Shown here one piece after another: positions 33,372 through 37,695 of a DNA stretch of 61,422 nt (positions are counted from its first letter, which is position 1; the number at the start of each line of letters is the position of its first letter). The translations under genes were made by a program, and so were the position numbers. Location: the NCBI GenBank assembly GCA_004214015.1, contig SGZE01000002.1, forward strand, positions 1-61,422. The letters are read 5' to 3'. The notes below the pieces were generated by a model. It was not told the origin of the DNA. It worked only from the letters and a program-made list of their open reading frames with translations, and searched no databases. This stretch comes from Flavobacteriales bacterium (GTDB taxonomy: Bacteria; Bacteroidota; Bacteroidia; Flavobacteriales; Flavobacteriaceae).

Positions 33372-33974
33372 ATGAAAATCATTAATTCAGTTTTTGAAAA
33401 AAGTAGTAAAACCATTGATCAATGTCCAAACAAAAACCTACCTGAATTTGCTTTTGTAGGCAGATCAAATGTAGGCAAATCATCACTCATAAATTCTTTA
33501 TTAAACAATAAATCAATTGCTAAAATTTCCTCTAAACCAGGAAAAACATTACTAATAAATCATTTTAGAATAAATGATAAACTGTTTATTGTTGACCTTC
33601 CAGGATATGGGTATGCAACTGTTTCAAAAAAAATAAAAGAAGACATTAAAAATATACATGAAAATTATTTCAAGTTAAGAAAAGAACTATTATACACCTT
33701 ACTTCTTATTGACATAAGACATGATATTCAAAAAAAAGATGTTGAATTTATGGAGTTCTTGATCAACAACTATTGTCCTTTTGTAATAATTTTTACAAAA
33801 TCTGATAAATTAAAAAACAATGAGTTAGACAAACAGGTTGAAAATTTAAAAAAACAACTTTCTGTGTATTGGGAAGATTTACCTAAAATGTTTGTTACTT
33901 CTTCTAAAACCAAAACAGGAATTAGTGAAATTCATAGCTTTATTGAATCTTCCTTAAAAGAATATGCTATTTAG
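33372..33974 (+). CDS. engB: Ribosome biogenesis GTP-binding protein YihA/YsxC
   Basis: FAFVGRSNVGKSSLINSLL, KPGKTLLINHF, VDLPGYGYA, FTKSDKL. Confidence 0.96.
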   Translation: MKIINSVFEKSSKTIDQCPNKNLPEFAFVGRSNVGKSSLINSLLNNKSIAKISSKPGKTLLINHFRINDKLFIVDLPGYGYATVSKKIKEDIKNIHENYFKLRKELLYTLLLIDIRHDIQKKDVEFMEFLINNYCPFVIIFTKSDKLKNNELDKQVENLKKQLSVYWEDLPKMFVTSSKTKTGISEIHSFIESSLKEYAI

Positions 33975-34296
33975 ATTGATCTGAAATTCTCTTTTCAAAT
34001 TCAATACAAAAATCTTCAATTAAGTTTACTAAGTTTTCTTCACCTGTAGCTTTAGATATAGATTGTTTCATTGATAAAAAAGTTTGAAGAGTAAAAGTTT
34101 TCATTTCATCAACAGGCATTTCTTTTGTCCAAAGATCCATTTTTAAAGTCTCTTTTTTTTTACTATCCCAAAAAGAGAGAAGCATAGCTTTTGAAGACTC
34201 GTCTATCATGCCGCCATCAGGAGCTGACCATGAAATTTGTTCAGGTATATTATTATCATCCAACTTCACCTTAATTGTTATTTCTGTTTCTTTCAT
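33967..34296 (-). CDS. gldC: Gliding motility protein GldC
   Basis: SWSAPDGGMIDESSKAMLLSFWDSKKKETLKMDLWTKEMPVDEMKTF matches the GldC pattern. Confidence 0.88.
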   Translation of the reverse strand: MKETEITIKVKLDDNNIPEQISWSAPDGGMIDESSKAMLLSFWDSKKKETLKMDLWTKEMPVDEMKTFTLQTFLSMKQSISKATGEENLVNLIEDFCIEFEKRISDQSK

Positions 34297-34313
34297 TTAA
34301 CTTTTTTAAACAC

Positions 34314-34321
34314 TAAATTTG
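34314..34321 (+). promoter_or_regulatory. Candidate -7 element (TAAATTTG) for nadE
   Basis: TAnnTTTG match in the gldC-nadE divergent gap. Confidence 0.5.
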
Positions 34322-34323
34322 CA

Positions 34324-34331
34324 CAAATATA
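34324..34331 (-). promoter_or_regulatory. Candidate -7 element (TATATTTG, minus strand) for gldC
   Basis: CAAATATA on plus strand, 2 bp from the opposing nadE -7 box. Confidence 0.5.
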
Positions 34332-34345
34332 TAATTTAATATTAG

Positions 34346-35134
34346 TTGATGAAATATCCTGAAAAAGTTTCAAAACATATAGTTAGTTGGATAGACAATT
34401 ATCTTAATAAAAGTAAAATGAAAGGCTTTGTAGTTGGTGTTTCTGGAGGAATAGACTCAGCATTGACATCAACTTTATGCGCTGAAACTGGGAGGAATGT
34501 TCTTTGTATTGAAATGCCTATCAGTCAAGGAAAAGATCAAGTTTCAAGATCTAAAAAACATATTGAATGGCTTAAGAAAAAATATCCCAATGTAAGCTCT
34601 ATTACGATTAGTTTAGATAAAACTTTTGATTCATTTGTAGATTCTGTTCCTAAGGTTAAATCTCCAGAAAATGAACTAAGTTTAGCTAATACGAGATCTA
34701 GATTACGAATGGTTACATTATATTATTTCTCAGCATTAAAAAAGTACATAGTTGTAGGGACAGGAAATAAGGTTGAAGATTTTGGTATTGGATTCTACAC
34801 TAAGTATGGAGACGGAGGTGTAGACATAAGCCCAATTGCAGATTTGTTAAAATCCGATGTTTATTCTTTGGCTAAATTTTATAATGTAAATGATGATATT
34901 ATAGAAGCAATCCCAACTGACGGACTTTGGAATGATAATAGAAATGATGAAGATCAAATTGGAGCTTCATATGAAGAGCTTGAAAAAGCAATGCAAATAG
35001 CTAACAAATTAGATTATGAACTATCAGAGAGAGAAAAGGAAGTTTCAAAAATATATAAGACATTAAACTCTTTAAACAGACATAAAATGCTGCCAATACC
35101 CGTTTGTAAAATTCCAAAAGATTATCTTAGATAA
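34346..35134 (+). CDS. nadE: Ammonia-dependent NAD+ synthase (start may be ATG 34349)
   Basis: GFVVGVSGGIDSALTSTL, VVGTGNKVEDFGIGFYTKYGDGGVDISPIADLLKSDVY, IPTDGLW. Confidence 0.93.
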   Translation: MMKYPEKVSKHIVSWIDNYLNKSKMKGFVVGVSGGIDSALTSTLCAETGRNVLCIEMPISQGKDQVSRSKKHIEWLKKKYPNVSSITISLDKTFDSFVDSVPKVKSPENELSLANTRSRLRMVTLYYFSALKKYIVVGTGNKVEDFGIGFYTKYGDGGVDISPIADLLKSDVYSLAKFYNVNDDIIEAIPTDGLWNDNRNDEDQIGASYEELEKAMQIANKLDYELSEREKEVSKIYKTLNSLNRHKMLPIPVCKIPKDYLR

Positions 35135-35135
35135 A

Positions 35136-35780
35136 TTGAAAAAATTAAAAATCTTAATTATTGACTCAAATCCAATTATTAATATTGGGTTTAAATCTAT
35201 ATTTAAAAACTCAGTAATATTTGAGGTAGCTGCATTTTCCAATAACAAAAATGAAATTAATGAGATAATGAATCAACAAGAAATTGATCTAGTTATATCC
35301 GAAATTAATTTTAAAGATGGAAATGTAAAAGATATTTTAAAATTATTCAAGAAAAAAGATATTGACGTCCCTTTAGTAATATTTACTTCTGAATCAAATG
35401 AAAATAAATCTGTTAACCTATTAAAATATGGAGCTTCAGGATTCATAACAAAAAATTTAAGAAAAAAAACAATAAAACGTATTATTCAAGATGTGGCTTT
35501 CACAAAATACGGATCAAAAGAATTGAATAAATTCACGAGACTTAAGAACAGATTTAGCTTTGATTATAATACAGAAAAATTAAATAGTCTTTCAAAACGT
35601 GAACTTGAAGTTTTAAAGTTATTCTTTAGAGGGAAAAGAAATATTGAAATTTCTGAAAAATTAAATATTAATCAAAAAACAGTAAATACTTATATAACAA
35701 GAATTATGAAAAAGCTTGAGGTTAATTCGAAAACTGATTTGTACTTATTAGCAAGAAAACACATTAAACAACCCTATTAA
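35136..35780 (+). CDS. LuxR/NarL-type response regulator with atypical receiver
   Basis: Receiver-like N-terminus (LKILIIDSNPII...VIFTSESN...YGASGFITKNL) and LuxR HTH (LSKRELEVLKLFFRGKRNIEISEKLNINQKTVNTYITRIMKKLEV). TTG start. Confidence 0.88.
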   Translation: MKKLKILIIDSNPIINIGFKSIFKNSVIFEVAAFSNNKNEINEIMNQQEIDLVISEINFKDGNVKDILKLFKKKDIDVPLVIFTSESNENKSVNLLKYGASGFITKNLRKKTIKRIIQDVAFTKYGSKELNKFTRLKNRFSFDYNTEKLNSLSKRELEVLKLFFRGKRNIEISEKLNINQKTVNTYITRIMKKLEVNSKTDLYLLARKHIKQPY

Positions 35781-37695
35781 GCTTAGCTGAAAGTATTTTT
35801 TTAAGCTTATAATAGCTCATAACTTGTTCTAAAATATCATTTTTATTGTCTTCTTTTTGAAACTCCTGCAGCTCTATAATTTTTTTATCGATTAGAAATC
35901 TTCTCATATTTAGTATTGTTTCGTTTACAAGCTGACTTAACTCACTACCGATTTTTTTAACATAAATATTTTTTCTTTCCCAATCGTGTAATTGATACTT
36001 CTCATCATTGATTAAAATATCAGATACAATTTTACTAGAACTTGAGTCTAAATCATTTATAAAATTCTCAATTGACAGAGTTGTTCCATTATGAAATCCA
36101 TTTATTAGTTTATTGTAAATATCCTTAAACGGAGAGTGTGTAAATTCTATTTCATCTTGCTGAAGATCCAAATATATTTTTTCAAATACTTTAGATCTAA
36201 TTTCTTTTTTAGTCTCAAGCACCTTTCCATTTTCATCCTTACTAAGTCGAGTGTCTTCAAATAAAATTTCTTCAGCACCATATTTTAGTAGGATACTAAT
36301 AATCTGTCTTTCAAGCTGATAAATGTAACTTGATGTATTTTCATTTTTGGAACTTTGAACTTTAACAATTTTTTTTCCGTAGAATTTTCTAGATGATTTT
36401 TTTAATGATTTACTATTCTCAATATTAGCAAAAGACCTAAAAAGTGAAGCTTCATCAATTTCTAAAATAGATGATAATTTTTTTATATAAATTTCCTGCT
36501 TTAATGAGTCTGGAATCAGTGAAATTGATTTAAGGATATTTTTTATTAAAGCTACTTTTTTATCTTCATCATTATGAAAGTCAGAGTTTATGTCAAGTTT
36601 AAAATCAATAAAATCTTTTGATTCTTTTTCAACGTAATCTAGCATAAAATCCTTTTTATTTTTTTTCACAAAACTATCAGGATCTTCTCCATCTGGGAAA
36701 GAACAAATTTTGACATTTAAACCTTCTTCTAAGATCATATCAATACTCCTTAATGAGGCTGAAAGACCAGCCTGATCTCCATCAAATAATATTATGATGT
36801 TTGAAGTAAGTCTTTTAATTAAAATAATTTGATCTTTAGTGAGAGATGTTCCAGATGATGCTAATACATTTTTAATTCCATGTTCATGAAGTTGAATTAC
36901 ATCCATATATCCTTCAACTAATAAACAGACATCATCTCTTACTATAAATTGTTTTGATTCATATATCCCATATAATGTCTTACTCTTATTATAAATTTTA
37001 CTTTCAGGGGAATTAATATACTTAGCTATCTTTTTAGTTGAATCAACTATTCTTCCACCAAAACCTACAATTCTTCCTGCTATACTTTTAATTGGGAAAA
37101 TTATCCTTCCTCTAAACCTGTCAATCTTTTTATCAGCGGTAGATAACACCAGCCCAGTTTCTTCAAGAAAATTATCAGAATATCCCTTATTTGAAGCACT
37201 CTTATAAAATTCATTCTGGGAATCATTACTATAACCTAAACTAAAATTTTGAATAGTGGACTCCGATAAACCTCTATCAATTAGATATTTTTTTATTCTA
37301 TCATTTTTCGAATATATTTCCTCAAAATAGGACAATGCATAGGAGTTTATAATAAATAAAGATTCTCTTTCATTTCTTTCTTCTACATTTTCAGCACTTT
37401 CTGCTGTTTCTATGATTTCAATATTATATTTATTAGCAAGATATCTTATAGACTCAGGATAATTAAACTGTTCGTGTTCCATTAAAAAAGCAATTACATT
37501 TCCACCTTTACCTGAACTAAAATCTTTCCATATTTGCTTTGAAGGAGAAACAATGAAACTTGGGGTCTTTTCATTTGTAAAGGGACTCAGACCTTTAAAA
37601 TTAGCACCAGTTTTTTTTAGAGCTATAAAGTCAGAAATCACCTCTTCAACTCTAGAAAACTCAAAAACCTTATCTATTGTATCCTTACTTATCAA
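35764..37695 (-). CDS. dnaG: DNA primase
   Basis: LKKTGANFKGLSPFTNEKTPSFIVSPSKQIWKDFSSGKGGN; Toprim LLVEGYMDVIQLHEHGIKNVLASSGTSLT, ILFDGDQAG. Confidence 0.96.
   Translation of the reverse strand: MISKDTIDKVFEFSRVEEVISDFIALKKTGANFKGLSPFTNEKTPSFIVSPSKQIWKDFSSGKGGNVIAFLMEHEQFNYPESIRYLANKYNIEIIETAESAENVEERNERESLFIINSYALSYFEEIYSKNDRIKKYLIDRGLSESTIQNFSLGYSNDSQNEFYKSASNKGYSDNFLEETGLVLSTADKKIDRFRGRIIFPIKSIAGRIVGFGGRIVDSTKKIAKYINSPESKIYNKSKTLYGIYESKQFIVRDDVCLLVEGYMDVIQLHEHGIKNVLASSGTSLTKDQIILIKRLTSNIIILFDGDQAGLSASLRSIDMILEEGLNVKICSFPDGEDPDSFVKKNKKDFMLDYVEKESKDFIDFKLDINSDFHNDEDKKVALIKNILKSISLIPDSLKQEIYIKKLSSILEIDEASLFRSFANIENSKSLKKSSRKFYGKKIVKVQSSKNENTSSYIYQLERQIISILLKYGAEEILFEDTRLSKDENGKVLETKKEIRSKVFEKIYLDLQQDEIEFTHSPFKDIYNKLINGFHNGTTLSIENFINDLDSSSSKIVSDILINDEKYQLHDWERKNIYVKKIGSELSQLVNETILNMRRFLIDKKIIELQEFQKEDNKNDILEQVMSYYKLKKILSAKLNRVV

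Follow-up and report, generated by a model that had tools for sequence, protein, structure and literature searches.

A NarL-type regulator with a putative pseudo-receiver domain conserved between nadE and dnaG of Flavobacteriaceae

The window analyzed here is a stretch of 61,422 nucleotides from contig SGZE01000002.1 of a Flavobacteriales bacterium (Flavobacteriaceae), and it carries a response regulator gene between nadE and dnaG. The features of this locus are given below; residue counts refer to 148 orthologues of the family.

34346..35134, plus strand: nadE, upstream neighbour, 1-nt gap (PF02540, 1e-48; adjacency conserved)
35136..35780, plus strand: regulator gene, NarL/LuxR-type response regulator of 214 amino acids, TTG start (translation, Pfam)
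35151..35486, plus strand: putative pseudo-receiver domain, residues about 6-117 (PF00072 match, (beta-alpha)5 topology in AlphaFold2)
35163..35168, plus strand: Asp10-Ser11, first metal-site acid kept and second (DD2) lost (Asp10 in 148/148, position 11 non-acidic in 148/148)
35301..35303, plus strand: Glu56, encoded by GAA, in place of the phospho-acceptor Asp (translation; alignments with EvgA and NarL)
35385..35387, plus strand: Thr84, the conserved Thr/Ser, retained (Ser/Thr in 148/148)
35451..35453, plus strand: Lys106, the conserved Lys, retained (Lys in 148/148)
35586..35753, plus strand: LuxR/GerE helix-turn-helix (HTH), residues 151-206 (PF00196, 1.9e-20)
35764..37695, minus strand: dnaG, convergent, overlapping the 3' end of the regulator gene by 17 nt (Pfam DnaG domains; adjacency conserved)

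When the coordinates were re-read, the regulator was found to start 1 nt past the nadE stop at 35134, as a previous sequence-only reading of this DNA had stated, and the TTG start (GTG in two cases) is kept across 23 sequences of the host genus. Several genus members carry an in-frame stop 3-9 nt upstream of this codon, and in these an alternative start is excluded. Pfam recognized a Response_reg domain (PF00072) above cut-off at residues 6-117 (2.6e-15, 57 bits), and the GerE match at residues 151-206 indicates that the LuxR HTH is intact, which had also been proposed. With an N-terminal receiver, a C-terminal GerE/LuxR HTH and a length of about 210 amino acids, the protein belongs to the NarL/FixJ family. 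Its best solved relatives by sequence were EvgA, NarL and VraR/LiaR, and Foldseek matched the structural model to FixJ, EvgA, LiaR and RcsB. EvgA, NarL and VraR/LiaR are thus among the best full-length sequence and fold matches, but these proteins are canonical, kinase-controlled receivers. The AlphaFold2 monomer reached a mean pLDDT of 84.9 and a pTM of 0.57; its domain arrangement is uncertain and it is blind to the active versus inactive state.

In this model, the receiver strands comprise residues 4-9, 29-35, 52-55, 80-84 and 102-105. Glu56 immediately follows beta-3, Thr84 (in VIFTSE) ends beta-4 and Lys106 (in GFITK) follows beta-5, and therefore these three residues occupy active-site positions. 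Glu56 aligned onto the phospho-Asp of both EvgA and NarL. Codon reading, alignments and model together confirmed what had been noticed from the letters alone, namely Glu in place of the acceptor Asp, an incomplete acidic pair (Asp10-Ser11) and retention of Thr and Lys. The domain is not a canonical receiver, as DD2 is Ser and the phospho-Asp is Glu. It falls into the class of pseudo-receivers or aspartate-less receivers: it is recognized by PF00072, yet it carries Glu56 and Ser11, and the substitution is conserved.

A profile search of 151 family genomes (one per genus) matched 134 of them at E <= 1e-30, and, by our count, 117 of the 151 at about 1e-50 or better. We read 148 distinct Flavobacteriaceae orthologues after removal of duplicates; those of G140 and G088 were left out. 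At position 56, we found Glu in 131 sequences, Asp in 14, and Thr, Ser and Gly in one each (L160, L187, L195); the latter three are natural counter-examples to a required carboxylate. Position 103 was Tyr/Phe in 147/148 sequences, and the second residue after the Lys (K+2) was Ala, Val, Leu or Ile in 112/148, with Phe absent from the residues listed there. Position 11 was occupied by Asn, His, Ser, Pro and others. In one genus subclade (L018, L019, L020, L022, L024, L025), the lost DD2 is replaced by Cys (LDCNP/IDCNP/LDCDP). A different Asp might have served as acceptor, which would have contradicted the original proposal, but no other conserved Asp was present in the orthologue alignment.

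Outside the Flavobacteriaceae, all 14 relatives within the order had the complete site (DD, D, S/T, K), eight of them with nadE and two with dnaG nearby, and all 20 paralogues from Flavobacteriaceae genomes carried DD...D. Because these two groups are canonical, the altered site belongs to the nadE-dnaG orthologous group and not to flavobacterial regulators generally. The loss of DD2 in every orthologue and the frequency of Glu56 rule out both a private mutation and a sequencing error. The sequence-only reading had named Asp in close relatives as a sign of such an artefact. Asp56 does indeed occur in 4/23 genus sequences, but these four branch from within Glu sequences and have not regained DD2, which makes them reversions.

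Aspartate-less and pseudo-receivers overall retain the Lys and the Thr in only about 60-70% of cases (PMC4395418, PMC12632262), compared with all sequences here, and therefore the non-catalytic pocket appears to be under unusual constraint. Within the genus, mean identity rose from 61% in the receiver through 80% in the linker to 88% in the HTH. Pairwise dN/dS was about 0.07-0.3 for closer pairs, and these values indicate that the regulator is under purifying selection. In one congener (L085, G020:C9, 60-540), the regulator runs out of frame near the HTH at an A-rich run close to a contig start, which may reflect a pseudogene or an assembly error. The low identity of the receiver relative to the HTH, together with the finding of Glu, Asp, Thr, Ser and Gly at position 56, would fit a domain decaying to a passive spacer, in which residue 56 is nearly neutral and only the LuxR DNA-binding domain matters. 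We consider this very unlikely, since Asp10, Ser/Thr84 and Lys106 are invariant, most of the family has kept Glu56, and dN of the receiver was lower than dS in the pairs shown.

The substitutions were read on a FastTree phylogeny with SH-like supports. The canonical group had been picked by its residues, and the tree independently parted this group from the Flavobacteriaceae sequences with a support of 0.985. Under parsimony, the second acid needed to be lost a single time, and position 56 needed to change eight times. This reconstruction places the single loss of DD2 on the stem of the Flavobacteriaceae. As we read the tree, Asp was replaced by Glu once on the same stem, followed by about four returns to Asp and by changes to Thr/Ser and Gly. 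Asp56 came back in two single sequences, in a genus with large genomes and in some members of the host genus, whose four Asp56 sequences clustered together with a weak support of 0.506. The second acid was regained in none of the 14 Asp56 sequences. Taken together, the comparison shows that the predicted Mg2+/phosphotransfer site of the receiver has been gone since the family ancestor, in which DD2 was lost and Asp changed to Glu.

Within the fetched flanks, nadE lies upstream and dnaG convergently downstream in 144/148 orthologues. The neighbour order (mraZ, alpha/beta hydrolase, engB, gldC, nadE, regulator, dnaG, polyprenyl synthase, queA, aroA) is kept around the regulator in the genus and largely kept across the family, and these data are best explained by vertical inheritance of the regulator at the nadE-dnaG locus in Flavobacteriaceae. 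The 17-nt overlap of the regulator and dnaG 3' ends (35764-35780) codes for a KQPY C-terminus that is near-invariant in the genus. On the other side, gldC (33967-34345 region) stays beside nadE, and in L066 gldB lies between the two. A search of 25 genus genomes, which was run without a positive control, did not find gldB.

In nearly all members of the host genus, the regulator follows a few nt past nadE, and therefore it is probably co-expressed with nadE there. The gap in most other genera is about 90-170 nt (median 133). This spacer of about 133 nt contains clade-wide conserved words, ATCTCCACA and CCTTACATTGCATGTCAGTAT, just after a TAnnTTTG-like box; they were read 130 nt ahead of the regulator at loci such as L071, L074, L101, L107 and L112. 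These words, which cannot be ascribed to the nadE-dnaG regulator as its operators, may represent a leader or an autoregulatory site that was lost in the host genus. No Rfam match was obtained at five loci around the regulator.

The host genome (806 kb, 61% complete) belongs to a genus of streamlined marine bacteria with genomes of about 0.8-1.3 Mb. NarL-type regulators usually have HisKA_3 kinases as partners. We found none of these in 25 genus genomes, most of which are incomplete, and control genomes were positive. The host genome and its congeners contain four receivers at most: two of OmpR size, each of which adjoins a HisKA kinase, one of about 390-400 amino acids and the nadE-dnaG regulator. 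Three HisKA kinases were detected in five of six genomes searched and two in the incomplete host genome. The counts suggest that the third kinase pairs with the 390-400-residue receiver, and by this assignment the nadE-dnaG regulator is the sole orphan receiver of the host genus. The initial remark that no kinase is adjacent thus holds and can be extended genome-wide, with the other three receivers matched by count to three HisKA kinases and HisKA_3 absent.

These data also bear on the question of whether the protein might still be phospho-regulated, either at Asp in the reverted lineages, via phospho-Glu or at another Asp. Asp56 occurs in 14 sequences, including four from the host genus, and HisKA-type kinases are present there. 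However, DD2 is non-acidic in all 14 Asp56 sequences too and the genus genomes lack HisKA_3, which makes phospho-regulation highly improbable. Since the phosphorylation switch is dismantled, control should come from something other than a partner kinase.

We consider it rather likely that the protein is a phosphorylation-independent pseudo-receiver regulator of the NarL family, probably active-like via Glu56, Lys106 and Thr84, with its output set by expression or by a partner. In this mechanism, the carboxylate at position 56, Thr/Ser84 and Lys106 would make up a permanent network, which keeps the receiver active-like and competent for dimerization, so that the LuxR HTH would bind DNA without a kinase. 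The output would then follow either the amount of protein, which in the host genus is encoded 1 nt behind nadE, or a partner. Glu can mimic phospho-Asp as a general rule, but this rule is weak and Glu alone is often insufficient. We infer the active-like network from this rule, from the fact that Lys and Thr/Ser are kept without exception and from the Ala/Val/Leu/Ile residues at K+2. Residues of this type at K+2 have been reported to favour active states of CheY (PMC12632262). Against the network, the Glu of ChxR is replaceable without loss of constitutive DNA binding (PMC4395418). The reversions to Asp and the rare sequences with Thr, Ser or Gly at this site also show that the protein does not strictly need Glu there. 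Thus, the pseudo-receiver suggested originally is well supported by the loss of DD2, the prevalence of Glu56 and the lack of both HisKA_3 kinases and an alternative Asp, whereas constitutive activity through Glu as a phospho-mimic, proposed in the same reading, is a hypothesis. The repeated return of Asp suggests that a carboxylate at position 56 matters more than the length of its side chain.

As a possible but doubtful scenario, the pocket might bind a metabolite or an anti-regulator that switches DNA binding; ligand control had also been raised in the sequence-only reading. Ligand or protein control is documented for some atypical regulators (multimers of FleQ and VpsT, and inhibition of Rem by MirA; PMC12632262), nadE is a fixed neighbour of the locus, the sequence of the receiver changes more quickly than that of the HTH, and a binding pocket would need the strictly kept Asp10, Thr/Ser84 and Lys106. 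Against such control, the nadE adjacency may reflect general synteny only. Moreover, redox-controlled regulators (RitR, HP1021) have a regulatory Cys, and a Cys redox switch is excluded because the regulator protein contains no Cys. Regulators of the VpsT type bind c-di-GMP with a W[FLM][TS]R motif, and the protein has no Trp. The more specific idea that the receiver senses a ligand, for instance NAD-related status in view of the nadE linkage, and couples this status to expression as a kinase-free, family-wide core regulator is very unlikely. For the phosphorylation-independent pseudo-receiver, known systems offer the following comparisons.

Glu is the commonest replacement of the phospho-Asp in aspartate-less receivers (26%; PMC4395418, PMC12632262). 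The nadE-dnaG regulators share with this class the receiver fold, Glu for phospho-Asp, loss of DD2, retention of DD1 and an orphan gene. They differ in that they form one synteny-locked orthologous family with near-complete conservation of Lys, Thr/Ser and Tyr/Phe, and in that Asp has returned in them repeatedly while DD2 has not. ChxR of Chlamydia trachomatis, which is itself active without phosphorylation, also has Glu at the phospho-site, but it is of the OmpR/PhoB type, whereas the nadE-dnaG regulator is of the NarL type with a LuxR HTH and a predicted activity. Other families of the order contain canonical relatives linked to nadE or dnaG (L075, L083, L206, L214, L219-L221, L223), some of them within about 100 nt of nadE, and these differ by their complete DD...D...S/T...K site. 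We found no study of the nadE-dnaG regulator gene in the open-access literature. Glu-type aspartate-less receivers are an already described class, and the family-wide, position-locked nadE-dnaG case seems to be uncharacterized.

The mode of switching of bacterial pseudo-receivers has been described as unknown (PMC12632262). The nadE-dnaG family offers a placed switch from canonical to pseudo-receiver at one locus, with canonical relatives beside the same genes. Given the recurrent reversions from Glu to Asp and hosts that are probably cultivable, natural variants could test the idea of Glu as a mimic. Streamlined marine bacteria, which have just four receivers and no HisKA_3 kinase, retain this regulator.
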